Notes: a model not told the origin generated them from the letters alone. Counted from the stretch's first letter, positions 6,471 to 23,435 are shown. The stretch: DNA of 43,022 bases from a virus (IMGVR_UViG_3300031951_000374:1-43022); one strand, 5' to 3'. Numbers and translations: made by a program.

Positions 6471-6484
6471 TCCCACGAATAACC

Positions 6485-7117: not shown

Positions 7118-7361
7118 GCGTATACCTCTTAATGAGACGATCGAGCAGAATTTTATCAAAGCTAATTCCGATCTGAACTCCCACAAAACTGCGGAGAATA
7201 TTTTGGACGGGTTGCCCATGAAAGGGGAGAAGGAGCGGACTGTGCGTATTACCGTCGATCTACCTGCTTCATTACATACTCGTCTGAAGATATACTGCGC
7301 GAACAGGAATGTTAAAGCTATGCACTTAATCATCTACCTCTTGGACAGAATCCTGCCCTGA
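7110..7361 (+). CDS. ribbon-helix-helix partition partner (ParG/ParB-like function)
   Basis: The 83-residue protein has a flexible, polar N-terminal half and a C-terminal ribbon-helix-helix: RTVRITVDLPASLHTRLKIY then a second helix. This layout matches the small centromere-binding partners of short ParA ATPases, in which the tail stimulates ATP hydrolysis and the ribbon binds the centromere and represses parA. The ATG overlaps the last codons of parA, so coupling is likely. Its 3' end overlaps the convergent gene 7326-7940. Confidence 0.75.
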   Translation: MSKRIPLNETIEQNFIKANSDLNSHKTAENILDGLPMKGEKERTVRITVDLPASLHTRLKIYCANRNVKAMHLIIYLLDRILP

Positions 7362-7940
7362 GCCGCGTTTCCACGCTTTCCCATACAGGTCATACTTGTC
7401 GCCGACATTTCCAAATCTTCGACGGCGACGAGCATGGCTTCTTCGATCAAATAACGTACAGCATTCAGGATCGTCAGGGACCTCGGGCATAGTTGGTTGA
7501 TAGGCCCAGCCGTGAGGATACAGGAAAGGTGGTCGCTCGTACTTAAATTTGGTGATAGTACCGCGATCGCTGATCTCAATTAGAAACCCATCAAGGCGTT
7601 GATTGCAGATCCGCAAAGCCGCTTCAGGCTCCCATTGATAATAGATTTCTTCTTCGCTAGTTTCAATATACTCATCACCTTCATCGGTGGTGACAAATTT
7701 CGGGGAGTGAGAACGACCAAAACAGGCGATCGCCAAGTCGGTTAACTGTTCAGCAATACTGTCGTTAAATGCAGCGAAGGCAATTCGTACATTCTCGCGG
7801 GTTAAAGGCATTACGTTTTTGCGGTTGCCTCGCGGGGTTGCTAAGTCCACCACCATCTTGAACCTTGGGTCCTGTTCAAGAAGGGTTTCCCACATCTGCG
7901 TCAGGGTTCGGCGCTCTGGTTGTTGTTGCTCTTCGTCCAT
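7326..7940 (-). CDS. hypothetical protein (204 aa)
   Basis: No family is recognised. The protein begins acidic (MDEEQQQPERR), contains an acidic stretch around DEGDEYIETSEEE, and has an Arg-rich segment RRSHARRRRRFG near the C-terminus that may bind nucleic acid. It ends 36 bases inside the 3' end of the convergent partition gene, and its start is overlapped by the upstream minus-strand gene, so it is probably co-transcribed with 7901-8185. Confidence 0.55.
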   Translation of the reverse strand: MDEEQQQPERRTLTQMWETLLEQDPRFKMVVDLATPRGNRKNVMPLTRENVRIAFAAFNDSIAEQLTDLAIACFGRSHSPKFVTTDEGDEYIETSEEEIYYQWEPEAALRICNQRLDGFLIEISDRGTITKFKYERPPFLYPHGWAYQPTMPEVPDDPECCTLFDRRSHARRRRRFGNVGDKYDLYGKAWKRGSGQDSVQEVDD

Positions 7941-8185
7941 TTAAGTTCTACGCGATCTCTAATACCATTAATATAGACATCGACAGCATCTCTCCGCACC
8001 CGCCATACATTCTCTTGGTCTGATATTTGGCAAAACGGACATGAAGTTTCAGTAGTTAAAAATCCATAAGCGATCGTCGCTCCATCTGGAAATTCTTTAA
8101 ATATTTCATCTAATTCAGCGCGAAGTGGGTCAGTATCGGTAGATTGTAAACTTATACCACTCGTTTTTTTCTTTGACGTAGCCAA
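7901..8185 (-). CDS. hypothetical protein with a Cys pair (94 aa)
   Basis: A TTG start at 8185 follows GAGG nine bases upstream. The protein contains ETSCPFCQI, a CxxC that could be a metal or redox site, after an acidic helix (LRAELDEIFKEFPDG). It overlaps both its upstream and downstream genes. The family is unknown. Confidence 0.5.
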   Translation of the reverse strand: MATSKKKTSGISLQSTDTDPLRAELDEIFKEFPDGATIAYGFLTTETSCPFCQISDQENVWRVRRDAVDVYINGIRDRVELKWTKSNNNQSAEP

Positions 8186-8487: not shown

Positions 8488-8544
8488 CTTTTGTGGCAGT
8501 ATTCTGCCTATCGTGTTAGTATTAACCACAAATGTACCACAAAT
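8477..8544. promoter_or_regulatory. divergent operator: two plus two TTTTGTGG half-sites
   Basis: TTTTGTGGCA occurs at 8477-8486 and 8489-8498, and ACCACAAAT, the inverse, at 8525-8533 and 8536-8544. The copies on each arm are 11-12 bp apart, about one helical turn, so a protein could bind in tandem on one DNA face. The site lies between the minus-strand zinc-ribbon gene and the plus-strand gene at 8572 and probably controls both. Confidence 0.55.
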
Positions 8545-8571
8545 GCGCGGAATATCGCGAGGAGGGCGGCT

Positions 8572-8793
8572 ATGCAAGGAGTTTTAAGTTATGAATTTGG
8601 GCCAGACGATCGCTATTATTTGGTTGGCTTGATTACTCACACAGACTTGAATATTCGCAATCTTTGCGGATTTGATACTCTCGACCAAGCTGGCGCGATC
8701 GCTAAGAGCTTTGGATATGAATTAGCTTGGGTTTTAAACAATGGGTCGGACACGCAAGGAGGGGAGGTCAACTACCTGCCCCTTCTTGTTTAA
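8572..8793 (+). CDS. hypothetical protein (73 aa)
   Basis: The ATG at 8572 follows GGAGGG five bases upstream, a strong ribosome site. A longer frame upstream would run through the operator and is rejected. The product (MQGVLSYEFGPDDRYYLVG) looks like a small alpha/beta protein; no family is recognised. Its 3' end overlaps a convergent gene. Confidence 0.6.
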   Translation: MQGVLSYEFGPDDRYYLVGLITHTDLNIRNLCGFDTLDQAGAIAKSFGYELAWVLNNGSDTQGGEVNYLPLLV

Positions 8794-8943
8794 ACATCCC
8801 ACCCTGCCTTTAGCGATCGCCCATTGGCAGCATTTCGTATAGTGTAAATCTTTGTTTGAGACGGAAATATCTCGTTTGCGATCAAACTCTAAAGAGATGT
8901 TTCCATTTTCCTCTTCCGCGCCACAGATTCCGCAAATTGACAT
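8734..8943 (-). CDS. small Cys-rich protein (69 aa)
   Basis: The product starts MSICGICGAEEENG and later has a CC pair (YTKCCQWAIAKGRVGC), suggesting zinc binding. The frame is open to 9027, but the ATG at 8943 gives a compact product starting at the CxxC. No ribosome site is evident, and its 3' end overlaps the convergent 8572-8793 gene by 60 bases. Confidence 0.35.
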   Translation of the reverse strand: MSICGICGAEEENGNISLEFDRKRDISVSNKDLHYTKCCQWAIAKGRVGCLNKKGQVVDLPSLRVRPIV

Positions 8944-9016
8944 GGGTTTAATTTGAAACGATGCTGAATTATCGCAGATTTGTGGCTTTTTTGTGTATCC
9001 ATCGTAGCAAAATTTT

Positions 9017-9580
9017 ATGTATATCAAAACCGACCTGACCGACGAGCAGAAAACTGTTCTGCAAAAGCTATTCCAAAGACCATGTATTGAACCCCATGTG
9101 ATTGCCCAGCAATTACATCTAAGCAGGTTGGAGGCGATCGCGCTGCTAGATAAACTCGTAAAAGATTACCCGCAGAAGTTTATACGCAAGCAGCTTGTTT
9201 ATCACAGTTGTTCTGACGCACCTGTAAAGGCGATCGATGACAGGGAGGTTATTAAAGAAGGATGGGTCTGCCCTGAATGTGGGGAGGAAGTAGATATCAA
9301 GGAACTCAATCTTGATCTGATGTACAAGGCGATCACGCCTGTAGATTTCCTCAATCCCAATGATGGTTTGGTTCGATACTGGAAGGTTGACTACTTCCCG
9401 TACTACGTTAAAGGTTTCTCGCCGAATACTGAGCCAGTATTCACCTTGCTTCAAGGCGATGCCGAGATGTTTGATGAAGTTCTTGCTCGACAGGCGAACT
9501 CAAGGCAGGAGGCGTTCACACTGATAGAGCGAGAGTTTGAGAGGACTGTTAGGGAGATCGTGAGGGATTTGCCAAGGTAA
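9017..9580 (+). CDS. putative DNA-binding protein with a zinc knuckle (187 aa)
   Basis: Residues 25-55 (EPHVIAQQLHLSRLEAIALL) form a likely helix-turn-helix. GWVCPECGEEV near residue 85 is a single CxxC knuckle, followed by a C-terminal acidic and aromatic domain (VRYWKVDYFPYYV). The pattern of an N-terminal winged helix, a knuckle and a small effector domain is seen in regulators, but I cannot name the family. A clear terminator follows, so it is a single-gene unit. Confidence 0.6.
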   Translation: MYIKTDLTDEQKTVLQKLFQRPCIEPHVIAQQLHLSRLEAIALLDKLVKDYPQKFIRKQLVYHSCSDAPVKAIDDREVIKEGWVCPECGEEVDIKELNLDLMYKAITPVDFLNPNDGLVRYWKVDYFPYYVKGFSPNTEPVFTLLQGDAEMFDEVLARQANSRQEAFTLIEREFERTVREIVRDLPR

Positions 9581-9585
9581 GTGAA

Positions 9586-9615
9586 AAGCATCCCGTTTAG
9601 ACGGGGTGCTTTTTT
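9586..9615 (+). terminator. intrinsic terminator after 9017-9580
   Basis: AGCATCCCGT and ACGGGGTGCT pair over 10 bp (one T-G pair) around a TTAG loop and are followed by TTTTT. It lies 6 bp after the stop codon of the 9017-9580 gene. Confidence 0.85.
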
Positions 9616-9754
9616 GTTGTAGCGATCATGTATTTAGAATGTTGCACTATTTGGGCAGTATTGAGCCTCTGTGACACTTTTGTGTATTTTTTTTGTCATG
9701 TCAGTACCCCTACACTGATACAAAGGTACAAGTATTGTCAAGCTTTTATTGTAA

Positions 9755-9790
9755 CTTTGTGGCAAAAGCAAGTTATACTTGTGGCGGTAT
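9755..9790 (+). promoter_or_regulatory. CTTTGTGGCA promoter region for 9813-10298
   Basis: CTTTGTGGCA (9755-9764) and a second TTGTGGC (9779-9785) flank TTATACT (9773-9779). A TTGTCA box lies further upstream (9735-9740). The region is 30-55 bp before the next start codon. It shows the association of the recurrent motif with a TATACT-like -10 box. Confidence 0.45.
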
Positions 9791-9812
9791 TAAAACTTGC
9801 GGAGATTGAAAA

Positions 9813-10298
9813 ATGGGTAGAAGCTCAAAGCAACGCGCTGCGAGAAGGGCTAGAGCGATCGCAGGTTCAAGCCCCGCGAATACAGAGCATATTGATTTTT
9901 ATAATTACCTCTGGAGGGGAGGACAAGAGGGGTTCCAAACGGAGATCTTTCTTCAAGGAGGTGTAGAACGGCGGTTGCTTTTCTCTAGCCTGTTCGCGTA
10001 TTGGGATTTACCTGAGATCCTGCTCAAGATGATTGCGCGGGACGAAAAATATGACTTTTTCATGTTTGTTTTTGTTGATTCCCCGCGAGAAGGCATTATC
10101 GTAGCCGAAAGGGAGTCAAAAAAAATTGATGGGTCTGAGTTTCAGGTTTGGAGGCAAGGTGAACAAACGATTGACACTGACGATCCAAACTTCAGGAGGC
10201 TTTTTGAAAAGGTGTTTGGGGACAAGTATATAGAAAGAGCTAAAATTGACCTCGCACTTAGAGAGCTATTCTTTCCTGAAGCTTCTAAGATTCGGTAA
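9813..10298 (+). CDS. hypothetical protein (161 aa)
   Basis: The ATG at 9813 has GGAG eight bases upstream. The protein has a very basic N-terminus (GRSSKQRAARRARAIAG), then a domain with hydrophobic strands (DFFMFVFVDSPREGIIVAER) and an acidic tail. No family is recognised. The DNA of the basic segment superficially resembles a tRNA T-arm but does not fold as one. Confidence 0.55.
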   Translation: MGRSSKQRAARRARAIAGSSPANTEHIDFYNYLWRGGQEGFQTEIFLQGGVERRLLFSSLFAYWDLPEILLKMIARDEKYDFFMFVFVDSPREGIIVAERESKKIDGSEFQVWRQGEQTIDTDDPNFRRLFEKVFGDKYIERAKIDLALRELFFPEASKIR

Positions 10299-10306
10299 CT
10301 ACCCAC

Positions 10307-10681
10307 ATGGAAACCCACGCCCTCGAACTAATCCTCTCCAACCTACTCACCTCGCGAGTAAAAGCTGAAGATGCCCCAGCATCCAGCGATCAACACTGGT
10401 GCACCGCGATCGCGGCTTTAGCCGAACTAATCCCCGATTGCGTACCCGAAGACCCAGAACGACTGTACGAATATAAATATGCGCTACTTAACCAAGAAGT
10501 GCTGTACGGCAGAATGACCTCTGGAGATGCGATCGCCGAGTTAGACAAGTACGAGGCGGTAGCACAAGAAGCTAGCTTCGTCCCACCACAGTACCGAGAA
10601 CTTTACAAGCGAGATCGCCCTCCGTGGACAGCGAATCAAACTCCTCCGACATTGAATTTAATCTTGCCGACGGGCAGCTAG
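10307..10681 (+). CDS. hypothetical acidic helical protein (124 aa)
   Basis: The product is mostly helical and acidic (AELIPDCVPEDPERLYEYKY), with a Pro-rich C-terminus (PPWTANQTPPTLNL). It starts 8 bp after the preceding stop and overlaps the following SLOG-like gene by 58 bases, so the three genes 9813-11166 are probably one operon. The family is unknown. Confidence 0.55.
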   Translation: METHALELILSNLLTSRVKAEDAPASSDQHWCTAIAALAELIPDCVPEDPERLYEYKYALLNQEVLYGRMTSGDAIAELDKYEAVAQEASFVPPQYRELYKRDRPPWTANQTPPTLNLILPTGS

Positions 10682-11166
10682 TTGTTGCTGGCACAGGACA
10701 TCGCCCCCAGAAACTACAAAGTACGTGGAGTCAGTACGAATCCTTAACCCTGCCCAGACTTACTGCCCTTGCCAAGAACGCCTTGGCGCAAGAAAGACCT
10801 GTAATTGTTATTTCTGGTATGGCTTTGGGGTGGGACACCGCGATCGCATTAGCAGCGATTGAATTAGAAATGCCTCTCGTCGCCGCAGTGCCTTGCCTAA
10901 ACCACGCATTCAAGTGGAGCCAATCTCAGCAAGACCAGTGGCAGTATATCTGCGACAAGGCGATCGCCGTGCATTGCCCTGATGTACCATACTCGGCTGC
11001 GGCGATGCAGATTAGAAATGAATGGATGTGCGATCGGGCTAACAGGATACTCGCATTATGGGACGGGTCGAGCGGTGGTACGGCTAACTGCGTGAAATAC
11101 GCCAAGAGAAAGGGTATTGAAGTGAAAAACCTCTGGACTTCTTGGCAGAAATACAAAGGTTTTTGA
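10624..11166 (+). CDS. SLOG-superfamily (YpsA/DUF1273-like) protein
   Basis: The 180-residue protein has the Rossmann-like signature of this group: VVAGTGHRPQKL near the N-terminus, VISGMALGWDTAIALAA, and near the C-terminus RANRILALWDGSSGGTANCV. SLOG proteins bind nucleotides or ADP-ribose-like ligands, and many sit in defence or signalling loci. Here the gene is encoded with two unknown proteins. The start is a GTG at 10624 inside the previous gene. The ligand and target are not known. Confidence 0.72.
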   Translation: MDSESNSSDIEFNLADGQLVVAGTGHRPQKLQSTWSQYESLTLPRLTALAKNALAQERPVIVISGMALGWDTAIALAAIELEMPLVAAVPCLNHAFKWSQSQQDQWQYICDKAIAVHCPDVPYSAAAMQIRNEWMCDRANRILALWDGSSGGTANCVKYAKRKGIEVKNLWTSWQKYKGF

Positions 11167-11653: not shown

Positions 11654-11956
11654 ATGCTTTACATATCTCTATCTGATTGTATTCGCAAAAAAGATGTCCT
11701 ACAAAAGATTCGAGATTACACTTTTAAAGAATTCGACTATAAATGCGCCTACTGCGGCAATGAAGCTCAGGGGCTTGACCATATAATCCCCCGCCATGAC
11801 TCAGGCAGTGACGACTTTGCTAATACCGTGCCAGCATGTACGCCGTGTAATCGATCCAAAGGGACTTATCGGTACGAGGATTGGTATACGCCAACTAATC
11901 ATTCGGGGTGGACTGAGTATCGTTGCCAGAGAATTGCTGAGTGGCGATCGCGCTAG
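11654..11956 (+). CDS. HNH endonuclease (100 aa)
   Basis: A compact HNH domain is visible: CAYCGNEAQGLDHIIPR, then ANTVPACTPCNRSKG, giving two zinc CxxC pairs and the DH/N catalytic motif. The ATG at 11654 is preferred to the TTG six bases earlier. Stand-alone small HNH proteins are common in phages as packaging nucleases or selfish elements. Here it is a single gene behind a TTTTGTGGCA motif. The 3' end overlaps a convergent repressor-like gene by 62 bases. Confidence 0.8.
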   Translation: MLYISLSDCIRKKDVLQKIRDYTFKEFDYKCAYCGNEAQGLDHIIPRHDSGSDDFANTVPACTPCNRSKGTYRYEDWYTPTNHSGWTEYRCQRIAEWRSR

Positions 11957-12161
11957 TTTTTTCTAGAGCTTTTAGGCGATCGGTGATCTCTGTCAATTGC
12001 TTTTCTATAAACTCAACACGCTCCTCAAATGTTGGTAAGCCGAGATGCTTTCGCACCGCAACGATTATTTCTGCGTTAGCGCTACTGCCTCTGCGATCGC
12101 AATAGTCTTTTAATGCGGCATGAAGATCGTCTGGAAATCGGGCGGTCTGGGTGACACTCAT
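11895..12161 (-). CDS. ribbon-helix-helix (Arc/CopG-like) transcription regulator (88 aa)
   Basis: The N-terminus SVTQTARFPDDLHAALKDYC matches a ribbon-helix-helix: a short DNA-binding strand, helix 1, then GSSANAEIIVAVRKHL as helix 2. A coiled-coil segment follows (EFIEKQLTEITDRLKALE). The start has AGGA upstream. It is divergent from the operon starting at 12307 and the shared spacer carries a promoter with a CTAGA/TCTAG palindrome, so it is a good candidate repressor of that operon. Confidence 0.7.
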   Translation of the reverse strand: MSVTQTARFPDDLHAALKDYCDRRGSSANAEIIVAVRKHLGLPTFEERVEFIEKQLTEITDRLKALEKTSAIATQQFSGNDTQSTPND

Positions 12162-12222
12162 AAATCCTTAGTGGTTGGATTGCCCAATATTAGCGCATCC
12201 CAAGAGATTTACTATCACTTTG

Positions 12223-12251
12223 TTGACAATCTAGAATAATCTAGGTACACT
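12223..12251 (+). promoter_or_regulatory. sigma70-type promoter of the 12.3-19.9 kb operon with internal palindrome
   Basis: TTGACA (12223-12228), a 17-bp spacer and TACACT (12246-12251) give a near-consensus promoter pointing to the plus-strand operon. The spacer contains CTAGA ATAA TCTAG, a palindrome well placed for a repressor such as the divergent ribbon-helix-helix protein. Confidence 0.7.
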
Positions 12252-12264
12252 AAGCTTATTCGCT

Positions 12265-12297
12265 CAACGGACATCCAACGGACATCCAACGGACACA
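12265..12297 (+). repeat. three 11-bp iterons (CAACGGACATC)
   Basis: CAACGGACATC is repeated at 12265-12275 and 12276-12286, with a third, slightly different copy at 12287-12297. The 11-bp period puts all copies on one face of the helix. They lie in the 5' leader between the promoter and the first gene of the operon and could bind an initiator, a regulator, or the translocase encoded in the operon. Confidence 0.6.
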
Positions 12298-12306
12298 CAA
12301 TCAAAC

Positions 12307-12537
12307 ATGGGAGAGATACAAAGATCGCTTAGAGAATGGGCTGAATTCTTTAATGTTCCTTTTGGAACGTTCAGGGGTTGGGCTTACGAGTTAAACAAGC
12401 GATCGCCCTTCTACCACTCTGACGCAAGAATCATCGCCGCCCACGGCGCTGGTAAAGCATCAAACGGCAGGGGGAATGCAGCGATCGCGGCAAAAAGGAA
12501 TTATACAAATGTCATGGAGAAACTAACTGTTGACTGA
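12307..12537 (+). CDS. helix-turn-helix protein, first gene of the operon (76 aa)
   Basis: The segment RSLREWAEFFNVPFGTFRGW has the spacing of a helix-turn-helix in which the second helix reads the DNA. A basic, Gly-rich tail follows. No ribosome site is visible before the ATG at 12307, which follows directly after the iterons. The protein may bind those iterons; this is inference. Confidence 0.5.
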   Translation: MGEIQRSLREWAEFFNVPFGTFRGWAYELNKRSPFYHSDARIIAAHGAGKASNGRGNAAIAAKRNYTNVMEKLTVD

Positions 12538-12922
12538 GGCTGAATTGGCGGCTTACGAAGCTGGCAAAAACCAAAAGAACCCACGAAGGAGGCTTGGGAA
12601 AGAAGTACCTCGGATGAAAGCCTCAAGGGTGACCAAAGAGCAGTTAGAAGACAGGTACGAGGATTTTGATGGTTTGTGCGCCTATTGTCGTCGAGAGATG
12701 GGAATTAATTCTGAGATAGACCACATTATTCCTATGGCTAAAGGTGGGTTGGACATTATAGAAAACCTCGTCTACGCCTGTAGCTCTTGCAACCAATCGA
12801 AAAATTCTCACGATCTAATCCCTTGGCTTCGTTCTCGCCCAAACTACGAAGAAAAGCTAGAACTCAAACTTCTTTCCGTATTTCCTTATTTACCACTATT
12901 GTTTCTTGACTATTATGAATAA
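12530..12922 (+). CDS. HNH endonuclease (130 aa)
   Basis: A TTG start overlaps the previous stop by 8 bases. After a basic N-terminus comes an HNH domain: LCAYCRREMGINSEIDHIIP, then GLDIIENLVYACSSCNQSKN, with both CxxC pairs and the DH motif. Position in the operon next to an FtsK-like gene and peptidoglycan hydrolase suggests a DNA-processing role (nicking or cutting for transfer or packaging), but a passenger homing nuclease is also possible. Confidence 0.78.
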   Translation: MTEAELAAYEAGKNQKNPRRRLGKEVPRMKASRVTKEQLEDRYEDFDGLCAYCRREMGINSEIDHIIPMAKGGLDIIENLVYACSSCNQSKNSHDLIPWLRSRPNYEEKLELKLLSVFPYLPLLFLDYYE

Positions 12923-13316
12923 CGAAGAAAAAGCAGCGTTCGATGCGGCAAAAAGTCCTAGTTCTAGTATTCCTAAGACTCCCCGAAACCGAGGGAAAGC
13001 CACCCCGACCGAATCTCAAACCAACTCAATCGTTAATCGTATTGATGAAGCTAGAAAGCTGACTCAATCAACCCAGATCGAGCAAGCCAAAGAGTACGCG
13101 GATGTTGTGACCGACCAGATAACAGCTTTGGCAGCACCGCTTATTGGTTTAGGTTTAGTAGAGAAGGGTATTGATTCGATGAGGGGTGGAGGCAAGATGG
13201 CGACGGCTTTTTTGCTCTCTACAACCAGTACTGGGATAGAGATCGAGAGTGCTTTCGCCCAGACATCCAATACCCTTTCCGATCCCTTGGCACAAGCACT
13301 ACTGACTGGGAGCTAA
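12915..13316 (+). CDS. hypothetical protein with hydrophobic segment (133 aa)
   Basis: The ATG at 12915 overlaps the previous stop. The N-terminal 50 residues are polar and Pro/Ser/Thr-rich, then come a helical stretch (ARKLTQSTQIEQAKEYADVV) and a mildly hydrophobic part (ITALAAPLIGLGLVEKGI) that could touch the membrane. No family is recognised. It belongs to the membrane-module operon. Confidence 0.5.
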   Translation: MNNEEKAAFDAAKSPSSSIPKTPRNRGKATPTESQTNSIVNRIDEARKLTQSTQIEQAKEYADVVTDQITALAAPLIGLGLVEKGIDSMRGGGKMATAFLLSTTSTGIEIESAFAQTSNTLSDPLAQALLTGS

Positions 13317-13321
13317 ATGAC

Positions 13322-14047
13322 ATGTTTGACCCTGCCGCAACACAAGAGGACTTTGAAGAATTGATCGCCGATTCTCCAGTCCCCACCCCTAAGATCGCTA
13401 GCAAACCTCCAAGCCAACTTGCCACTGCGCCCCAAGTCCTCGCGCAGCCAAAGCAAAACTTACTTACCCCAAAGAATCTGATTCTTGCAGGTATGAGTGC
13501 TGCCTGTCTGATTATCGGGGTAATGGCAGTGGCAAGCAGTCAACCCAAACCTGCGGAGCAAATCCTGCCTTACACGCCAAAGACCTTGGCTGATGTAGCT
13601 CCGCAAATCCTAGCCGAGAACAAAGAAAAGCAAGCCCAAACACTTGCTGACTTTAATTCCCTCGCCGAAGAAGGATTGAGGCAGGACGAGAAAGCCGCTA
13701 TCCGCATTCTCGCCGCCAAGTATGTGATCGACGCAAATAAAGCCGTCCAGTCTGGCGACAAGCAATGTTTGCGATCGCCTATTGGATTGGACTGTTACTT
13801 AAATCTCCAAGAAGCCGCATGGAGCGATCGCCGCAAAGCCGCTTCTCTTGCTAAAGATGCTACGCAAATGGTTATTGCGACCACAAACCTTCGTGCGATC
13901 GAATCAGCCAGAGAAGGAAGAGTGGAATTGGTTGAAACCGATCCCGAACTAACCGAGCTGGCCCTGCGAAATCGCTACAACGCGAGGATCGACTTACTAA
14001 ATTCCAGTGCCAACGAGAAAGCTCGCCAACTCAACAAAAAGCTATGA
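13322..14047 (+). CDS. single-pass membrane protein of the transfer-like module (241 aa)
   Basis: A Pro-rich cytoplasmic N-terminus (about 50 residues) is followed by one membrane helix (LILAGMSAACLIIGVMAVAS, about 53-72). An outer region of about 165 helical, charged residues contains a Cys pair near residues 150 and 157 (QCLRSPIGLDC). This bitopic shape resembles the scaffold proteins of type IV-like envelope machines (for example VirB10 or VirB8 shapes), but I see no sequence motif of those families. It overlaps the FtsK-like gene by 4 bases. Confidence 0.5.
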   Translation: MFDPAATQEDFEELIADSPVPTPKIASKPPSQLATAPQVLAQPKQNLLTPKNLILAGMSAACLIIGVMAVASSQPKPAEQILPYTPKTLADVAPQILAENKEKQAQTLADFNSLAEEGLRQDEKAAIRILAAKYVIDANKAVQSGDKQCLRSPIGLDCYLNLQEAAWSDRRKAASLAKDATQMVIATTNLRAIESAREGRVELVETDPELTELALRNRYNARIDLLNSSANEKARQLNKKL

Positions 14048-15402
14048 AAAAGTCAACAATAAATGCTGCACTAGCTCTTAGCTGTTTTGCTTGGCTTGGC
14101 GCTGGAGCATGGTCAGCAATCCCCAAGGACTACTTATTCAAATCTGTTGATGAGTACAGGAGAGTAGATTCAAATGTTAACGATCATGGGCAACAGGCTG
14201 TACTTCAGCCCAGCTCCTATAACAATCCTATTATTACTGCTGGTTTTCTCGCTATGGCGATCGCGTCAGGTATCTGCTTGGCAAGCAACCTTGAAGAAGA
14301 ACAACCCGCAGCTCAAGAAGATGACAAACCTGTAGAGCAGCCTCGCCATAATCAGCAGGTTGCCACGCCAGTAATTATCAAGAACAACAATGTTCAGAGG
14401 ATGTCGGTTCCTCGCCCACAGACTGCTCCTATCGCGAAGAAACCTCAGTTCGATGAGGAATCTTACGTTGACGACGAGCCGATCGCTGTCGCCGAGTACT
14501 CAAAGGGCGTATTTACTGGCGATATCATTGGTGAGATCACAAAAACGACTCTCCACATCTTGATCGCCACAAAGTCTGGCGCTGGCAAGTCCACAACATT
14601 GAATGCTATTATTCAGCGCTTAATGACCGATAAGCCTGAAGCCACATTCAATATTGTTGATCCTAAGACTACTGACTGGTTCGGGTTACAGCAATCGACC
14701 GACATTGTTACCTACCTCAACCAAGACACCCCTTCCGAACAGCTTGATGCAGCGCTAGAGGCTATTAACAAGACTTACGCCAAGCTGAAAGCAAGAAGAA
14801 AGGCTGTTCAGAAGGCGTTGAGAGAAGGCAAACCAGTACCAAAATTCTCCCAACACTATCTCATCCTTGACGAGTGGTACAAAGTTTACGCCGATATCGT
14901 GCGCCTTAAAAGGGTTGACGAATTTGCTGAACCCTTGGGCGAGATCATCTCGATGGGTAGGGAACTAGGTATTCAGTTAATACTTGTTTCAATCTCCCAT
15001 CTTTGCGGAGAGATCGGGTTTAGTGGTCCTGCCCGTGAATGTTTCTCGGTATTGGCTCAGGGTCGTGTCGGCGAAAACAACGATGTTGGCTACGCCCCTA
15101 TCGTTAGGGCGCTGAAAGACTCTTACTTATTTCAAGACAAAGCCCAAAGATTATTGCTTGAGCAACAACTTAATCAAGCGATCGCTATGGCGAAGAAAGA
15201 AGGCGATCGCCCCGTAATGCTCATAACAATGGGTATTCCAAGAATTGCGTTGGGACCAGATCTTAAACATCTAAATGGCTTCAGGTTCGATTTCGAGGAA
15301 TCGGAAGACGCTGAAGAATCGGTGGAGGACACTATGGAGGAACTCGATAGAATCCTCGCGATCGGTAAAGACAATGTAGTGCCGTTTGCTAGAACGGCTT
15401 AA
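14044..15402 (+). CDS. membrane-anchored FtsK/SpoIIIE-like DNA translocase ATPase (452 aa)
   Basis: Two N-terminal membrane helices (about 7-26 and 63-81) precede a linker and an ATPase domain. Walker A is IATKSGAGKST (175-184), then comes FNIVDPKTTDWFG, the position of the FtsK IDPK motif. Walker B is HYLILDEW (271-278), and an SMGRELGIQLILVSISH stretch matches the FtsK GRxxGIHLILATQ motif. The family pumps double-stranded DNA through membranes. At 452 residues it lacks the gamma DNA-reading domain of chromosomal FtsK. Neighbours are membrane proteins and a peptidoglycan hydrolase, which suggests DNA transfer across the envelope. A VirD4-type coupling protein is the alternative. Confidence 0.78.
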   Translation: MKKSTINAALALSCFAWLGAGAWSAIPKDYLFKSVDEYRRVDSNVNDHGQQAVLQPSSYNNPIITAGFLAMAIASGICLASNLEEEQPAAQEDDKPVEQPRHNQQVATPVIIKNNNVQRMSVPRPQTAPIAKKPQFDEESYVDDEPIAVAEYSKGVFTGDIIGEITKTTLHILIATKSGAGKSTTLNAIIQRLMTDKPEATFNIVDPKTTDWFGLQQSTDIVTYLNQDTPSEQLDAALEAINKTYAKLKARRKAVQKALREGKPVPKFSQHYLILDEWYKVYADIVRLKRVDEFAEPLGEIISMGRELGIQLILVSISHLCGEIGFSGPARECFSVLAQGRVGENNDVGYAPIVRALKDSYLFQDKAQRLLLEQQLNQAIAMAKKEGDRPVMLITMGIPRIALGPDLKHLNGFRFDFEESEDAEESVEDTMEELDRILAIGKDNVVPFARTA

Positions 15403-15407
15403 AACTC

Positions 15408-15923
15408 ATGAATGCAGGAAATATGCCGCCACAGGGCGGTGGAGGAGGAAAATCAATGAAAACAGCAGATCCAGACGCTTATGGTATTGTTTACGGAAAG
15501 AAAGGGTCGGCAGCGATCGACTATGACGGCGACGGAAAGGCAGATAATCGAGGCTCTGGAGAGGCTCCTTTATGGCTCGTTGATGCAAAGCATTGGTGGT
15601 CTATTGTTGTCGCTTTTCGAGCCCTATTATCTGCGGCTTGGCATAATAAATTTCATGCAGTAATGTTATTCTTCGCCTTGCTGGGCATCATCCCTGCGGC
15701 GTGGATGGGAGGCTTAGCTTTGTTTGCGTCGAACGCTAGACAGCTAACAAACGCAGAAGCGGGTGGATTATCAGGTGCGATCGGCAATAACCTAGTTGTA
15801 AACATCAAAGGAGCAGTCTCCGCTCCAGCTTCAGCTATTTACGATAAGTCCGTTGCTGATAACCTAAAAGCCAGTAATGACATCGCCCTCTCACCTCGCG
15901 AAGAAAGAGCAAATCGCCGCTAA
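15408..15923 (+). CDS. membrane protein with EF-hand-like loop (171 aa)
   Basis: The N-terminal region carries DYDGDGKADNRG, a calcium-binding-like DxDGDGxxD loop. A membrane helix follows (AVMLFFALLGIIPAAWMGGL, about 84-105), then a Gly/Ala-rich region. An ATG at 15456 has a strong Shine-Dalgarno (GGAGGAGG eight bases before), so the true protein may start there (155 aa), and the Gly run of the longer form may only be its ribosome site. It lies between the translocase and the hydrolase genes in the operon. Confidence 0.55.
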   Translation: MNAGNMPPQGGGGGKSMKTADPDAYGIVYGKKGSAAIDYDGDGKADNRGSGEAPLWLVDAKHWWSIVVAFRALLSAAWHNKFHAVMLFFALLGIIPAAWMGGLALFASNARQLTNAEAGGLSGAIGNNLVVNIKGAVSAPASAIYDKSVADNLKASNDIALSPREERANRR

Positions 15924-15927
15924 ACCA

Positions 15928-16419
15928 ATGAAAAAATGTGACATAGCGATAGACGCATTGTTGCTAGGTGCGCTTATCGCTATTTTTTTTAATCTCCCAG
16001 AAGAAGGCTACCTTGCTTTCGTAGATCTCCGCCCGATCGCGGAGACGCAGCTAGCAAAAGTACTCGATGGCAACACTGAAGACTGCCTTACCACCCCCTC
16101 TCAAACAACACCTGTACCAATGAGTCAAGCCCTCAAGCTTGAAGGCAAAACAACAAGACAGGTACTCAAAGAATTTCCTAACTATTTTTGCGAAGGTAAG
16201 AAAGGAACCGTCTCCTACATCAAGTTCCTAACAGACTCAAGCAAGCAGCTATATGTGCAGATTGATAAAACTTTAGACGAGCCCATTAAGTATGGTTTTA
16301 CTAAGCCAGAAGCAGTCAGTCCTGCCACCACAACCAAAGCTAGAAGAACTTCCGAAGCCGGATCAGTTTTATTACCACGAGAATCTCAGAAAGAGGGAAG
16401 CTCGTTGGAGAGGCGCTAA
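15928..16419 (+). CDS. exported or membrane-anchored protein (163 aa)
   Basis: The start at 15928 gives MKKCDIAIDALLLGALIAIF, a signal-anchor helix, followed by an extracytoplasmic region with two Cys (EDCLTTP and NYFCEGKKG) that could form a disulfide. The frame is open to an ATG at 15877, overlapping the previous gene. It overlaps the hydrolase gene by 128 bases. The family is unknown; it is part of the envelope module. Confidence 0.5.
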   Translation: MKKCDIAIDALLLGALIAIFFNLPEEGYLAFVDLRPIAETQLAKVLDGNTEDCLTTPSQTTPVPMSQALKLEGKTTRQVLKEFPNYFCEGKKGTVSYIKFLTDSSKQLYVQIDKTLDEPIKYGFTKPEAVSPATTTKARRTSEAGSVLLPRESQKEGSSLERR

Positions 16420-17440
16420 ACTTTTAGCGATCGCATTGCTTGGTGTCGCGATCGCCTATAAACCAGCCAATGATTCAGTGAAGTGGGCATACAGATTTCT
16501 AGGATTTCCTACTACCGCTAAACCATCCCTCGAAGTTAACTTTAAGCCCGATGAAGACTTCAATGCGCCACTAAAGGTTGGAGATAAAGTTCTAAGTTAT
16601 GAAGTCACTTCTGGCTTTGGTAAGAGAGAAAAGCCATGCCCATCATGTAGCGAAGACCACAAAGGCGTTGACATCGCAACTCCAGTTGGAACTCCTGTTT
16701 ACGCGATCGGGAAACTAGGTTCTAAAAGTAGCTTTCATGACGGTTTTGTAGATGTTGCTTGCCCGTTCAACCCATTTAATCCACCAGAAGGGATGGCAGC
16801 TTATGTAACCAGTCCCCTGTTGCCCGAATATGAAATCGAGCTATTCCACCTAAATGAATGTTATTCAGGTAGACATCCCGTTGGATCAATGATTGCCAAG
16901 TCTGGAAATTCGGGAGCGTCTAGCGGTCCACACCTGCATGTCGGAGTTAAGCTCAAGGGCGAGTTGATTGATCCTCCGAGAGGTATTGTGTCTTGGTTGT
17001 TACAAGGGAAAGAGCCGACTAAGGCTCCAACCAAACCTGTTGTCGAGAGACTTCGTAATGCGATCGCTGGTCAAGAATCAAACCACGACCATAAAGCTAT
17101 TAATGCAGATAGCGGCGCATTGGGTTACGGGCAGATAATGCCTGATAACATCAAATCGTGGAGTACTCAATGCCTTGGCTCCCCATTAACCGAACAGGAA
17201 TTCCTTAAAGACAAGACTAAGCAGGTCAAGATCATTGACTGCAAGCTAGAGGAAGCCTTAAAACAGGTCGCGCCGACATCAAAATCCGAAGAAGAACAAA
17301 TTCGGAAAGCTGCTTCGATTTGGTATTCGGGAGATCCGTCTCTATTCAACAACGCTCGCCCCCAAACCTATGGAGGTAACTCCTACCCCAGTATTGCCGA
17401 GTATACAGAAACTGTTTATAAGAGGTTTAAAAAGCAATGA
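16292..17440 (+). CDS. bifunctional cell-wall hydrolase: M23 endopeptidase plus lytic transglycosylase (382 aa)
   Basis: A membrane helix at about 43-56 (KLLAIALLGVAIAY) anchors the protein. An M23 (LytM) domain spans about 100-235, with SGFGKRE, HKGVDIATP (zinc ligands H123, D127) and SGPHLHVGV (H214, H216). A goose-lysozyme/SLT-like domain follows from about 250, with GQESNHDHKAIN (catalytic Glu262) and GALGYGQIMP. It cuts both peptide and glycan bonds of peptidoglycan. Operon context points to a VirB1-like role in opening the wall for a transfer or injection machine. A phage lysin is less likely given the N-terminal anchor. It overlaps dnaN by 4 bases. Confidence 0.85.
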   Translation: MVLLSQKQSVLPPQPKLEELPKPDQFYYHENLRKREARWRGAKLLAIALLGVAIAYKPANDSVKWAYRFLGFPTTAKPSLEVNFKPDEDFNAPLKVGDKVLSYEVTSGFGKREKPCPSCSEDHKGVDIATPVGTPVYAIGKLGSKSSFHDGFVDVACPFNPFNPPEGMAAYVTSPLLPEYEIELFHLNECYSGRHPVGSMIAKSGNSGASSGPHLHVGVKLKGELIDPPRGIVSWLLQGKEPTKAPTKPVVERLRNAIAGQESNHDHKAINADSGALGYGQIMPDNIKSWSTQCLGSPLTEQEFLKDKTKQVKIIDCKLEEALKQVAPTSKSEEEQIRKAASIWYSGDPSLFNNARPQTYGGNSYPSIAEYTETVYKRFKKQ

Positions 17441-18627
17441 CAAAAATGCAACTAACAATTCCCCTTAAAACATTAAAATCGATGGTGGACGCGGTAAAAG
17501 AAGCTGTTCCCAAGTCACCACCACAAGAAGTACTAACAAACTTCCGACTCGAAGCCAAGAACAATCTCTTCACCATCACAGCTACGGACTTAAAGTTGGG
17601 GCTAATCCGTCGAGAAGACTGCAACGATATTAAGGAAGAAGGGGCGATCGCATTCAACGCCAAGCGATTCTCCGACGCGGTAAAATCTCTCAAAGGCGAA
17701 GAAATTTTAATCAGGGTATCCGAAGGTATTGCCACTATTAAGTGCGGCAAGAGTAAAATCTCACTACCGACCATTAGCGCCGACTCATACCCAAGCACTC
17801 CCAAGATTACTGATGCCGACACCTTTGCGATCGCCACAGATATACTGCGGGACGGTATTGCGGCTACCTTGAAGCTTGTATCTAACGACGAAACCAAGCC
17901 TGCACTTGCGGGTGTGAACTTAGCGGAGTACGACGAAATCGTTGATGGCGAAGACGATTCAACCAGATTCCTGTCTTTTACGGCAACCGATGGCTATCGA
18001 GGCTCTTGTATCAGGTTCGTCCACCCCGAATTGAGCGAGAAGCTGATTAATGTAACGATACCTGCGCGATCGCTCAAAGAGGTGTTGCACATCACCCAAG
18101 CCGAGACGGAGGTAAGCTTGGCTAACAACCATATCTGGTTTCATAGTCACGCTCTGACCGTTATTTCGCCGCTAATCGCACAGCCATTTCCGCCAGTGAG
18201 ATCAATCCTTGTTGACGTGAGACTTAAACAGATGTCTGGGTCTGTAAAGTGCGATCGCAAAGAACTGATTAGCAGTCTAAAGACCGTTGCCTCACTATGC
18301 GAAGGCGAAATTACCAGCTATTTGGTTGACATTACTATCAAGGGTGATGAACTGATACTTGTTGCCGAAGTTGCGGGTGTGGGCAGAGTGGAAGAATCGC
18401 TGCCATGCGATGTTGGCGTGTCAGGATTTGCTGCTCGGTTCAACATAAAATACTTGCAGCATATCTTGGATACCACAAACTCAAAACACGTTAAGCTGGA
18501 GGTATACGAGGGGACTCGACCATTGGTAATGGTTAGCCCATGCGACGGAGTGGAGCAGGAGTCTTTTTTGACATCAGTGATTATGCCCAAGAAATTTCAA
18601 GAGGAAGAAGATGACGAAGAAGATTGA
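17437..18627 (+). CDS. dnaN: DNA polymerase III beta subunit (sliding clamp)-like protein (396 aa)
   Basis: Length and layout fit the three-domain clamp: TIPLKTLKSMVDAVKEAVP at the start, then FTITATDLKLGLIR, then SLPTISADSYPSTP and FATDILRDGIAATLKLVSND at the second domain. The last residues (VIMPKKFQ) correspond to the family end (usually MPMR), followed by an extra acidic tail (EEEDDEED). A private clamp would recruit polymerase, MTase or ligase to the replicon. It overlaps the hydrolase gene by 4 bases and the ParB-like gene by 17, so it is co-expressed with the envelope module, an unusual pairing. Confidence 0.85.
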   Translation: MTKMQLTIPLKTLKSMVDAVKEAVPKSPPQEVLTNFRLEAKNNLFTITATDLKLGLIRREDCNDIKEEGAIAFNAKRFSDAVKSLKGEEILIRVSEGIATIKCGKSKISLPTISADSYPSTPKITDADTFAIATDILRDGIAATLKLVSNDETKPALAGVNLAEYDEIVDGEDDSTRFLSFTATDGYRGSCIRFVHPELSEKLINVTIPARSLKEVLHITQAETEVSLANNHIWFHSHALTVISPLIAQPFPPVRSILVDVRLKQMSGSVKCDRKELISSLKTVASLCEGEITSYLVDITIKGDELILVAEVAGVGRVEESLPCDVGVSGFAARFNIKYLQHILDTTNSKHVKLEVYEGTRPLVMVSPCDGVEQESFLTSVIMPKKFQEEEDDEED

Positions 18628-19255
18628 TTATTCGCTGCCGATCGCTCAGCGAATCAAGATTGAGCGCAGTGTAAGAATTGAAACCTCAAAAATTCACCCG
18701 AATAATTGGAACGCCAATTTTTTAACCCCCAAAGCCCAAAGAGCACTTGGAGGGAGTATGAAGTTGTTCACGCAGGTTGCCGAGATACTTGTCCGTCCTC
18801 ACCCTTTTATTGAGGGCGAATACGAAATCATTGATGGTGAGCATCGGTATATCGAGAACCTCGAATATTTGCTATGCCACGTTATTACAGGACTAACGGA
18901 TGAAGAATGCCAGTTATTAACGCATGCCTCGCACGGATATGGCGAGCATGAACCAGTTAAGCTAAGTAAGTCGCTTAGAGATATTGAAGCAGCGTTAGGC
19001 GATCGCACCTTTCAGCCCATCCCCTATACAAAAGAAGATATCTCCAAGATGTTAGAACTTGCCAAAGAGAAGGCTCCTCCCGAAGCCAGTGACGAATTCA
19101 CTCGAATGATCTTTAGTGTTCCTACGGACGCTGTGGAGATCGTGAGGGCAGCGCTGGAAAAGGTAATGCAGGAGGCTAATATCGAGGGCGAAAATTATTC
19201 CGTCAAGATGGGGCGATCGCTTGAGTATTTATGTGCTGATTATTATGGAGGCTAA
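18611..19255 (+). CDS. ParB/Srx-fold protein (214 aa)
   Basis: The N-terminal half has the ParB nuclease-fold pattern: SKIHPNNWNANFL, GGSMKLFTQVAEILVRPH and EYEIIDGEHRYIENL, the last being the conserved DGxHR box. The usual ParB helix-turn-helix is not clear. In phages such proteins lie near terminase genes and can be nicking or regulatory enzymes. The true partition partner of parA is probably the ribbon-helix-helix protein at 7110, so this one likely has another function. The start has GAGG upstream. Confidence 0.75.
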   Translation: MTKKIDYSLPIAQRIKIERSVRIETSKIHPNNWNANFLTPKAQRALGGSMKLFTQVAEILVRPHPFIEGEYEIIDGEHRYIENLEYLLCHVITGLTDEECQLLTHASHGYGEHEPVKLSKSLRDIEAALGDRTFQPIPYTKEDISKMLELAKEKAPPEASDEFTRMIFSVPTDAVEIVRAALEKVMQEANIEGENYSVKMGRSLEYLCADYYGG

Positions 19256-19259
19256 AGCT

Positions 19260-19871
19260 ATGTTTACCGAGCAGATTTGGAGATCCAAATGTATAGACTC
19301 TACTATGCGTAGATTCGGGATTGAGATACCCAAGGAAGTTGCCGATGCGATCGCCTGCCTAGATAGAGATGAACTACATCGCTTAATAGAGCTTTTAAAC
19401 CTAGCTGTTTGGCTTGAGTTGTATGAAGAAAAGTGGGAAGAGTTTCCTGCTTCATCCGCATGGATTGCGGCAAACAAGTTCCTCGAAATCCAAACAGATC
19501 AAAGGATTTGGTTGGCGCTTCTAAAGGTATTGGTTGGGCTTTTACAATATTACGGAGATCAAATGTACGAGAATTTATTAAAAGAAGGCGAAACAGTCGA
19601 GCGGCTAAATCTTGGTGGCTGGATTGTTTTGTCAAATCTATTGGCGATCGGTGACGAAGTTATCATTGATTACGATAGCTACTACCCTCAATTATTCGTG
19701 GAGCCAGTCAGGGCAACGATTACCAATATAAGCTCCAACAATCTACTGAAGATAGATTTGCAGACAGAAGGAGCTAAGAGCGAGCGTGGCAGTCTTTGGC
19801 CAACAGGAGAACACCCATACTGGCTGGATTGTAAGTTTCAGTGCAAGAAAATTGTAAAACAGGTCAATTAG
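19260..19871 (+). CDS. hypothetical helical protein (203 aa)
   Basis: The ATG at 19260 follows GGAGG nine bases upstream, which decides the start. The N-terminal part is helical (EVADAIACLDRDELHRLIEL). The C-terminal part resembles a small beta domain (GDEVIIDYDSYYPQLFVEPV). No family is recognised. It is the last gene of the plus-strand operon before a 700-bp spacer. Confidence 0.5.
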   Translation: MFTEQIWRSKCIDSTMRRFGIEIPKEVADAIACLDRDELHRLIELLNLAVWLELYEEKWEEFPASSAWIAANKFLEIQTDQRIWLALLKVLVGLLQYYGDQMYENLLKEGETVERLNLGGWIVLSNLLAIGDEVIIDYDSYYPQLFVEPVRATITNISSNNLLKIDLQTEGAKSERGSLWPTGEHPYWLDCKFQCKKIVKQVN

Positions 19872-21241: not shown

Positions 21242-21838
21242 ATGGCTAAGAAAGGTAGACCTAAAAGCAGAGCAGATCTATCTCCGTCTTTACTAAAGGA
21301 GGTGAAAGACCGAATCAGGAGAACTGGTTCGGCTGAATCCGTGTACGAACAATTACCCAGAATCATTACTAAACACACTTACGATTCGTGGCAAATTGAG
21401 TTCCCTGAATTTTCTGAGGAAATTAATGTCGCTTTGGCGGACTACAGGCGATCGCAACCTGATTATTTTATAAATTTAGCCAAGGCTTGCGTAGAAGATT
21501 ACTTAACTTGCCATAAATCTCCAAGGGTTACAACCTCTCGAACTAAGAGAACTCGGTATGTACCAAACAAGAAAAAGCCCGATGAATTAGTTTTAGATTG
21601 CATTGACGAAGTAGAGACCACTAACGAGGTTATCCTGCGCTGCCCTCCCAAGATTATCGAGATGATTATGCCAGCAATACCTCGGACAACTATCGATGTG
21701 CTGGCGACTCAGATGGCTAACGAAGGTATACTGCCGCAGTCTAAAGCCGAGACGATTATGGCGATCGCCGATCAAGCTCAGACAACTATCAGGGAGGTAT
21801 TAAGCGGTGGGCTTAGCGACACTGAAGAAGAGTTGTAA
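21242..21838 (+). CDS. terS: terminase small subunit-like protein (198 aa)
   Basis: The ATG at 21242 starts MAKKGRPKSRADLSPSLLKE, a basic N-terminus. It is followed by a helix-turn-helix-like segment in which KHTYDSWQIEFPEFSEEINVAL resembles the phage TerS pattern (serial HTH plus Wx-hydrophobic patch). The C-terminal domain is helical (IIEMIMPAIPRTTIDVLATQM). The function is mainly inferred from its place directly before and overlapping terL. TerS binds the packaging site and regulates the large subunit. Confidence 0.7.
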   Translation: MAKKGRPKSRADLSPSLLKEVKDRIRRTGSAESVYEQLPRIITKHTYDSWQIEFPEFSEEINVALADYRRSQPDYFINLAKACVEDYLTCHKSPRVTTSRTKRTRYVPNKKKPDELVLDCIDEVETTNEVILRCPPKIIEMIMPAIPRTTIDVLATQMANEGILPQSKAETIMAIADQAQTTIREVLSGGLSDTEEEL

Positions 21839-23435
21839 CGCGCAGGTTAAGGCGATCGGGGGAGATCAGTTTCTAGACTTAGGCGAAGATCTTACAAGGT
21901 TTGCCGACGACCCCGAAGGGCTGATTATGTATATGCAGCCGAACGGAATGCTGTCCCAAGACCAAAGAGAGATACTGCGATCGTATATTGAAGAACAGGA
22001 AACCAACGTACAGGCAGCGCACGGGGTTGGAAAGACTTGGCTACTTGCTTGGATAGTTATTCATTTTGTTAAATGTCTTGGGGGTGTTGCACTTACTACT
22101 GCTCCAACCTATCGACAAGTCGAGATGCTGCTCTGGAGGTATATACGCAGCAACTACGATCGCAACAAGAAGATCATCGGGGGTAGGAGAACTTCGGTTA
22201 GGCTATTTCTAGACAATGACTGTTTTGGGGAAGGATTTAGTACTAGTAATTATGATGCCAATACCTTTCAAGGCGTTCACTCAAAGAAGCTTCTCATTGT
22301 CTTTGATGAGGCTAACGGTATATCCTCTCAGATTGATGATGGGGCTGCATCCTGCCTAACAGGTTCCGACACCAACAAGATTATCAGGGTTGGAAACCCA
22401 GTATCTTCAGGAACAGCTTTTGATGCTGCCTGTAAAATGGGTCACATTAGAATTCCCGTATGGTCTCACCCGAATGTGGTCGATTTCTATGAGTTGCATC
22501 CAGATGGTATACACCGACTCAAGCCCGATATTGCCGAGAAGATACTACGCGATCGCGATGACCCCCAATACAAACGAAGCCCCGTAAAACCACAGAAATT
22601 GTGGTCAGAGGATCTACCGCGAGACGTTGTTGAAGGGGCGGTGTCTGTTGAATGGATTGAGAAGATCCGATCAAAGAAGGGCGAGCGATCGCCTTACTGG
22701 GTAAGCCGTGTCGAAGGCTTATTTCCTGAAGACTCAGGCAGTGCTATTCTTCCCCAGTCATACTTCTTGGCGGCACGAGCAAGGTACGATCTCAACCCCG
22801 ATCTATGGGAAACGATCATCAATGTCAATACACCTTGGAGTTTTGGTGTAGATGTTGGCTCCATGAGTGACGACCATGCTATTTGTGGGTTCCAAGGTAA
22901 TGTACTTAAGGTCGCGAGAGTTATCCCCTGTGTAGGCGATCGCAAAGATGTTATTCGTATTGCCCAAATCATTGAGGAAGAATATCTGCGCGTCTATCCA
23001 AACTGCAAAGTCGGCATAGATGCTACGGGTGTTGGTTCGGGCACATTAGCCTACTTGCTTGATCGCGGATGGGGAGCGCAGGTATGGGCAGCTAATTTTG
23101 GTGATGCAGTTGAAGAAGATGCTAACCAAGACTTCGATCAGTTGTACATGAACTGGAAGGCTCAATGGTATTGGAAGTTGCGTGAGTTCTTTGCGGCTGC
23201 TGATGGTAATGACGATATATCAGCGATCGCACCACTAGAAGAAGAAGAATATATCATGACCGACTTCAGTAACGTCTATTACGAAGAAACCCCCAACGCG
23301 AAACTTCGCATCGAGGATAAGGCTTCTAAGACTATTCCGAGATTGGGGCGATCGCCTAATTGTAGTGATGCTTGTGTAATTGCGTTTGCTGGTAGAGAGA
23401 CACTGATGGATACTTTGTGGCGGACTGGATATTAA
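21807..23435 (+). CDS. terL: terminase large subunit (packaging ATPase and nuclease, 542 aa)
   Basis: The GTG start at 21807 has GGAGG eight bases upstream, within terS. The ATPase domain has Walker A AAHGVGKTW (70-78), TTAPTYRQV, and Walker B LLIVFDEAN (162-170). The RNase H-like nuclease domain has FGVDVGSMSDDHA (Asp349) and VGIDATGVGSG (Asp405). Near the end, DACVIAFAGRE may provide the last acidic residue. It pumps DNA into a procapsid and cuts it. No portal or capsid gene follows; the strand switches right after the stop. Confidence 0.9.
   Translation: MGLATLKKSCNAQVKAIGGDQFLDLGEDLTRFADDPEGLIMYMQPNGMLSQDQREILRSYIEEQETNVQAAHGVGKTWLLAWIVIHFVKCLGGVALTTAPTYRQVEMLLWRYIRSNYDRNKKIIGGRRTSVRLFLDNDCFGEGFSTSNYDANTFQGVHSKKLLIVFDEANGISSQIDDGAASCLTGSDTNKIIRVGNPVSSGTAFDAACKMGHIRIPVWSHPNVVDFYELHPDGIHRLKPDIAEKILRDRDDPQYKRSPVKPQKLWSEDLPRDVVEGAVSVEWIEKIRSKKGERSPYWVSRVEGLFPEDSGSAILPQSYFLAARARYDLNPDLWETIINVNTPWSFGVDVGSMSDDHAICGFQGNVLKVARVIPCVGDRKDVIRIAQIIEEEYLRVYPNCKVGIDATGVGSGTLAYLLDRGWGAQVWAANFGDAVEEDANQDFDQLYMNWKAQWYWKLREFFAAADGNDDISAIAPLEEEEYIMTDFSNVYYEETPNAKLRIEDKASKTIPRLGRSPNCSDACVIAFAGRETLMDTLWRTGY

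Follow-up and report, generated by a model that had tools for sequence, protein, structure and literature searches.

The stretch of DNA considered here is a linear viral sequence of 43,022 bases, making up the whole of a virus record in IMG/VR (IMGVR_UViG_3300031951_000374) and referred to in its entirety as the window; it is probably a fragment of a larger genome. The features of interest are the genes at positions 13322–17440, which encode, in order, a bitopic membrane protein, an FtsK-like ATPase, two small proteins with one transmembrane (TM) helix each, and a TM-anchored peptidoglycan hydrolase in which an M23 domain is joined to an SLT domain. The open reading frames (ORFs) named for this region in the initial annotation, made from the DNA sequence alone, are all present on one strand (plus), where they overlap or are tightly packed. 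Family matches in Pfam or PHROG were obtained for the HNH endonuclease, FtsK-like ATPase, M23 domain, sliding clamp and ParB-like protein that it had proposed, and its membrane assignments agreed with hydropathy analysis, which placed a single TM helix in the bitopic protein, in both small proteins and in the hydrolase, and two in the ATPase.

The bitopic protein (13322–14047; 241 aa) has its TM helix at residues 53–71, with the C-terminal part predicted to lie outside. The adjoining gene (14044–15402) encodes a membrane-anchored ATPase of the FtsK/SpoIIIE family (452 aa; TM helices at residues 8–26 and 63–81), assigned from homologues, a match to PF01580 (26.6 bits against a gathering cut-off of 24) and the presence of Walker A (GAGKST at residue 179) and Walker B (LILDEW at residue 273) motifs. 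Since the protein ends approximately 40 residues, acidic in character, past the last match to the motor domain (residues 409–411), there is no room for a DNA-reading gamma domain. A match to mad8 was weak, restricted to the ATPase domain and judged to be generic, and a role as a defence protein was discounted. A near-identical contig (L002) lacks exactly 168 bp, equivalent to 13906–14073 of the window (junction at 1311/1312); the gap covers the C-terminus of the bitopic protein and the N-terminus of the ATPase, and represents either a natural variant or an assembly error.

The small membrane proteins, mem1 (15408–15923; 171 aa; TM helix at residues 87–105) and mem2 (15877–16419, with a possible start at 15928; 180 aa; TM helix at residues 23–41), were likewise defined by hydropathy. 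Mem1 has positional counterparts on Leptolyngbya boryana plasmid1 (L005), on Brasilonema pBOCT1 (L045) and at a further locus (L047), and mem2 is the positional counterpart of the ORF124 'holin' of the Planktothrix phage PaV-LD. The hydrolase (16292–17440; 382 aa; TM helix at residues 41–59) was identified from PF01551, PF01464 and homologues. Its M23 domain scores 36.7 bits (cut-off 28.7) and includes the zinc-site residues H123, D127 and H216 (HxxxD/HLH), while the SLT domain, at 19.7 bits, falls just below the cut-off of 21.3, with intact GQESN (residue 260, containing the SLT glutamate) and GALGYGQI (residue 275) motifs. An alignment of homologues contains invariant columns, and the combination of a TM anchor with M23 and SLT domains, the latter just under its cut-off, is that of VirB1-type multi-domain hydrolases. 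With its start at 16292, the gene shares 128 nt with the ORF before it; the following in-frame start, at 16436, is within the TM helix.

The nearest annotated relatives of the ATPase are ORF127L of PaV-LD and proteins encoded on plasmids of filamentous cyanobacteria. The window and PaV-LD proteins are 23% identical in the case of the ATPase (1e-9) and 35% in the case of M23 (3e-12), and share a common order comprising the bitopic protein (ORF128 in PaV-LD), the two-TM FtsK-like ATPase (ORF127), small TM proteins (ORF126–124), the TM-anchored M23 enzyme (ORF123) and a second wall enzyme. The last of these is a separate GH108 protein (ORF122) in PaV-LD, whereas in the window it is the SLT domain fused to M23, and the window, unlike PaV-LD, adds sliding clamp and ParB-like genes downstream. 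PaV-LD carries an integrase and virion genes, but ORF128–122 are far from the portal, capsid, tail and tape measure genes and adjoin genes of DNA metabolism, with no par genes annotated beside them. The PaV-LD order is kept in all of its IMG/VR relatives (16/16), and the same 16 loci were recovered by an alignment-based scan with the PaV-LD ATPase group; a scan of the same type with all 7 ATPases yielded no conserved stretch of sufficient length, and a contig search using the ATPases of the window and L. boryana returned no relatives. The PaV-LD-type cluster is under purifying selection, which is strongest on the ATPase and bitopic protein (median dN/dS of 0.08 and 0.085, respectively, versus 0.11 for GH108, 0.12 for ORF124 and 0.15 for M23).

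The initial annotation had raised the prospect of the same gene order on other cyanobacterial plasmids, and this was borne out for Oscillatoria acuminata and L. boryana. Plasmids pOSCIL6304.01 and pOSCIL6304.02 of O. acuminata encode, in series, ParM, a small protein, a protein with two TM helices, a bitopic protein, a two-TM FtsK-like ATPase, two one-TM proteins, and an anchored hydrolase in which M23 (or M23-like) and GH108 domains are fused in one protein. Core order and topology are those of the window, the differences being the plasmid location, the presence of GH108 instead of SLT, and an extra C-terminal part on the ATPase. The megaplasmid plasmid1 of L. boryana encodes a bitopic protein, the ATPase, a one-TM protein and an anchored M23 enzyme; a terminase search of these three complete plasmids gave no match. 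At 11831–13204 of plasmid1, M23 is fused to a DUF2927 domain (8e-36), whose family is uncharacterised and could represent a further wall-related enzyme.

Clusters on Brasilonema, Calothrix and Nostoc plasmids are looser versions of the core. Brasilonema pBOCT1 has genes for a bitopic protein, a two-TM anchor without an ATPase domain, two one-TM proteins, an anchored M23 enzyme and a lysozyme-like protein, directly followed by a soluble FtsK (8538–10715; PF01580 at 3e-21, plus FtsK_alpha), such that the anchor and the separate FtsK are possibly a split motor. Calothrix PCC 7716 p2 encodes a bitopic protein, a divergent ATPase-like protein, two one-TM proteins, an anchored 286-aa protein of no recognised type and, last, a protein with relatives in the clusters of L. 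boryana and Nostoc C052. In Nostoc C052, ParM is followed by an anchored M23 enzyme and its partners, the ATPase being absent. Conversely, the ATPase occurs without an adjoining M23 relative on other Nostoc, Tolypothrix and Oscillatoria plasmids, and on L. boryana pLBA, a 77.8-kb element listed as a plasmid but bearing a terminase, integrases and an FtsK-like gene of the ATPase family, which looks like a phage-plasmid. ParM often precedes the cluster or the ATPase on plasmids. Plasmid matches to one ATPase-family protein from Nostoc were all in filamentous genera (31/31, although the records are non-independent and the denominator is uncounted), whereas CyRepA-type plasmid-replication proteins, used as a control, also match unicellular genera. 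An Acaryochloris M23 protein considered as an exception to this pattern lies outside any such cluster.

Homology that can be recognised by sequence across these lineages is limited to the ATPase and the hydrolase. In profile comparisons, the ATPase domains of the window, PaV-LD/O. acuminata, L. boryana and Nostoc-type groups align, while the Calothrix and Brasilonema proteins occupying the ATPase slot do not align with the other groups. In a tree of the ATPases, a fully supported branch (100/99) separates those of the window, PaV-LD and O. acuminata from the L. boryana and Nostoc-type proteins. M23 domains are related across loci by BLASTP, and the enzymes have an N-terminal membrane anchor in the PaV-LD group, O. 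acuminata, L. boryana, Brasilonema, Nostoc C052 and the window. The wall enzymes themselves vary (M23+SLT, M23+GH108, M23 and lysozyme-like, and others) while gene order stays, the second enzyme being swapped between lineages. The bitopic protein keeps its place and its topology in PaV-LD, O. acuminata, L. boryana, Calothrix and Brasilonema, but profile comparison of the bitopic and small proteins revealed no homology between lineages, save for a hint (52%) between the bitopic proteins of PaV-LD and O. acuminata. Since these proteins are unalike between most lineages, it is their position and topology that define the module.

We tentatively interpret 13322–17440, with a confidence somewhat short of even, as a VirB4-less, FtsK-type DNA-export module found in phages and plasmids of filamentous cyanobacteria, comparable to TraB or TdtA with the addition of a VirB1-type hydrolase. 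A bolder version, held with greater reserve, is that these loci represent an unrecognised DNA-export machine lacking both VirB4 and a pilus, in which an anchored FtsK-type pump is combined with exchangeable anchored hydrolases on temperate phages and plasmids, and of which the PaV-LD 'lysis module' would be one part. The proposal in the initial annotation that pump and wall hydrolase form a single envelope machine gains support from the recurrence of the gene order on phages and on plasmids free of phage genes. Nor are the homologues always located within virion gene clusters, a pattern that the annotation had regarded as fatal to the idea: the PaV-LD cluster is away from the virion genes, and the O. 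acuminata plasmids and L. boryana plasmid1 gave no terminase match. A literature search for an FtsK–hydrolase module of cyanophages or cyanobacterial plasmids found none described in the papers covered; the gene grouping is new and well supported, and the function assigned to it is a proposal. Gene order, domains, topology, distribution and selection were observed directly, and from them we infer joint action of the parts, DNA as the substrate, and the direction of its movement.

Under the export model, the ATPase, with its two helices in the inner membrane, would form a hexameric ring and push DNA, probably double-stranded as with FtsK-type motors, across the membrane. The bitopic and two small membrane proteins would provide the membrane and periplasmic part of a channel, or else recruit the channel to a septum or contact site, with the anchored M23+SLT enzyme opening the wall locally in the manner of VirB1-type hydrolases in conjugation. 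In this way, the element would deliver its DNA into adjacent cells, possibly from cell to cell of the filament, much as TraB of Streptomyces and TdtA of Thermus move DNA with neither VirB4 nor a pilus; the filamentous-only plasmid matches fit with transfer along filaments.

In both of these systems, a mobile element uses its FtsK-type ATPase to move DNA without VirB4 (PMC12857230; PMC5365140). The Streptomyces TraB/Spd analogy drawn in the initial annotation holds in so far as a mobile-element FtsK-family motor is accompanied by small membrane proteins, without VirB4, in filamentous hosts (PMC12857230). It does not extend to the C-terminal winged-helix gamma domain of TraB, the absence of which from the window ATPase rules out membership of the TraB family. 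TraB, which transfers double-stranded DNA between cells, binds clt/TRS repeats; no clt-like set was found in the window, where the 11-bp repeats form one short array in the leader. Conversely, the anchored M23/SLT hydrolase present in the window is not known from TraB operons in the sources used. A plasmid of Streptomyces sp. CRCS-T-1 encodes (5332–8146) an FtsK/SpoIIIE protein closely followed by a bifunctional lytic transglycosylase/C40 peptidase, a comparable pairing from the actinobacteria. The transjugation system of ICETh1 in Thermus is alike in that a small FtsK-HerA ATPase, TdtA, exports DNA without a type IV secretion system (T4SS) (PMC5365140), but the tdtA operon comprises NurA, restriction and methylase genes and, unlike the window, encodes neither a wall hydrolase nor a bitopic protein. 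Gram-positive T4SSs (coupling ATPases of the TcpA/ConQ type; bifunctional VirB1 hydrolases PrgK, TraG and Orf14) also pair a two-TM FtsK-like ATPase with an anchored multi-domain hydrolase. VirB4 is the signature of all T4SSs (PMC12857230), the Gram-positive ones included, whereas VirB4-type PF12846 had no match in the window (a fragment), PaV-LD or the O. acuminata plasmids, in what is a weak test given that the conjugative control scored only 2.7e-4.

The main rival explanation, which we consider unlikely but by no means negligible, is that the genes constitute a phage lysis cassette, with the one-TM proteins being holin- or pinholin-like, the anchored M23 and muramidase or transglycosylase enzymes acting as signal-anchor endolysins, and the ATPase and bitopic protein being neighbours or helpers. 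ORF123 and ORF124 of PaV-LD have been published as the endopeptidase and holin of a lysis module, the overexpression of which inhibits Escherichia coli and Synechocystis in a manner that requires the TM domains and is stronger when both are expressed together (PMC9096620). The adjacency of a phage-encoded wall hydrolase to a small TM protein is that of holin/endolysin cassettes, the terminase gene of the window follows the cluster further downstream on the same strand, and an examination of 20 other unannotated PaV-LD proteins turned up no second wall hydrolase. Against this, the assay was one of overexpression, which makes a wall hydrolase or membrane peptide toxic regardless of its function, and the ATPase was outside the scope of that study. 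Moreover, the ATPase and bitopic protein are always retained, under constraint at least equal to that of the enzymes, the PaV-LD cluster is not adjacent to late genes, and the cluster is not confined to lysing elements, being also on plasmids without a terminase match, such that lysis is insufficient as a shared role. Phages may rely on the cluster for lysis as well, and some components of a published phage lysis cassette may be parts of a machine for DNA transfer. A segregation device, in which the ATPase would clear plasmid or prophage DNA from a closing septum as FtsK or SpoIIIE does while the hydrolases open the septal wall, thereby stabilising rather than spreading the element, is improbable. 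Membership of the FtsK family, the adjoining ParM genes on plasmids and the ParA- and ParB-like genes of the window are consistent with it, but septal pumping by FtsK/SpoIIIE needs no two wall enzymes, and PaV-LD, with its integrase and virion genes, has no annotated par genes next to the cluster.

Very improbable, in our estimation, is a remnant or partner of conventional conjugation, in which a T4SS with genes at another location in the cell is served by the ATPase, as its type IV coupling protein, and by the hydrolase, as its VirB1. The two-TM topology is that of coupling proteins, and some plasmids with members of the ATPase family are typed as conjugative (MPF_T) or have relaxases. In agreement with the initial annotation, none was found in the window, which is incomplete, or in PaV-LD or three relatives, using PF03432 and PF01076, the two families searched. 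The relaxase partner elsewhere that the annotation thought would point to ordinary conjugation does exist for pOSCIL6304.02, which carries a MOBP relaxase, although not for pOSCIL6304.01 as far as these two families are concerned; the phages likewise have none, and the VirB4 result, weak as it is, runs in the same direction. DNA export is preferred because it explains the conserved motor and the anchored wall enzymes jointly, on elements without need of lysis. Several observations nonetheless count against it: the window ATPase is without a DNA-recognition domain; ORF123 and ORF124 do behave as an endopeptidase and holin when overexpressed (PMC9096620), with no other hydrolase recognised among the PaV-LD proteins searched; the bitopic and small proteins are united by position and topology; many ATPase homologues on Nostoc and Tolypothrix plasmids have no hydrolase alongside; structure prediction for the ATPase, for which a RecA-like hexameric motor fold would be expected from its family, gave a pLDDT of 31 (AlphaFold, 8 sequences) and thus no usable structure; and transfer by any member is something that we infer.

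Upstream of the core, a promoter-like site (TTGACA-17-TACACT; 12223–12251; 10/12 consensus matches) precedes the first gene and is a plausible promoter, as judged by its sequence. The notion of a single promoter driving the operon goes beyond this, and promoter-like sites in the region number 10, compared with 9.9 in shuffled sequences. Tandem 11-bp repeats (CAACGGACATC, 2.8 exact copies; 12265–12295) identified by Tandem Repeats Finder begin 14 nt past the −10-like hexamer, within the leader ahead of the first ATG. The array described in the initial annotation as iterons is therefore real, with a run of 20 matches that was equalled (period 7–30) in 0 of 20 shuffles, but a role as a clt-like transfer site is unsupported. 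There is no further exact copy in the window, and the 15 matches with up to two mismatches (9 expected) are nearly all scattered single sites; the repeats look like a leader element. The first gene (12307–12537; 76 aa) is present as described, although its designation as a possible helix-turn-helix protein has no family support in Pfam or PHROG. It is followed by an HNH endonuclease gene (12530–12922; 130 aa; PF01844, 2e-12) and an ORF for a 136-aa protein with a hydrophobic stretch (12906–13316), which occupies the slot of small membrane proteins in relatives. Downstream, the genes for a sliding clamp resembling the beta subunit (17437–18627; phrog_947, 1e-57), probably on the same transcript as the hydrolase, and a ParB-like protein (18611–19255; phrog_723, 3e-8) are outside the conserved core.

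A gene for the terminase large subunit (TerL; 21807–23435, plus strand; phrog_2, 6.6e-28, with tblastn matches to phage terminases), overlooked in the initial annotation, identifies the window as, by its gene content, a partial tailed-phage genome and rules out a plasmid origin; since the window is a 43-kb virus contig with TerL, the missing relaxase carries little information on plasmid status. HIP1 palindromes are a marker of cyanobacterial DNA, and GCGATCGC occurs 119 times in the window (1–43022) against 0.6 expected. Family matches also revealed a DnaB-like helicase, ThyX, dCTP deaminase, single-stranded DNA-binding protein, RusA, ParA and ribonucleotide reductase. The last (27239–29959, minus strand) is in two ORFs, matching profile positions 27–372 and 399–701, separated by approximately 230 non-coding bases (28442–28672) that could be an intron, intein remnant or break, and that had no Rfam match at gathering score. 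An 18-bp unit repeated 14 times (3901–4161) encodes VEAATT repeats in an ORF at 3494–4222 (minus strand), and a replication-initiation O-like protein (40931–42322, minus strand) matches HNH endonucleases at residues 149–249, an apparent domain insertion or fusion.

The movement of many cyanobacterial plasmids is poorly explained, several of those encountered here being typed as mobilizable or non-mobilizable without a recognised transfer apparatus. A small operon comprising a motor and a wall-opener, common to phages and plasmids, is a concrete and testable candidate for such transfer. If the export model is true, a lysis cassette considered for the control of cyanobacteria has been read too narrowly; if the genes serve only in lysis, their occurrence on plasmids devoid of virion genes has to be explained in some other way.

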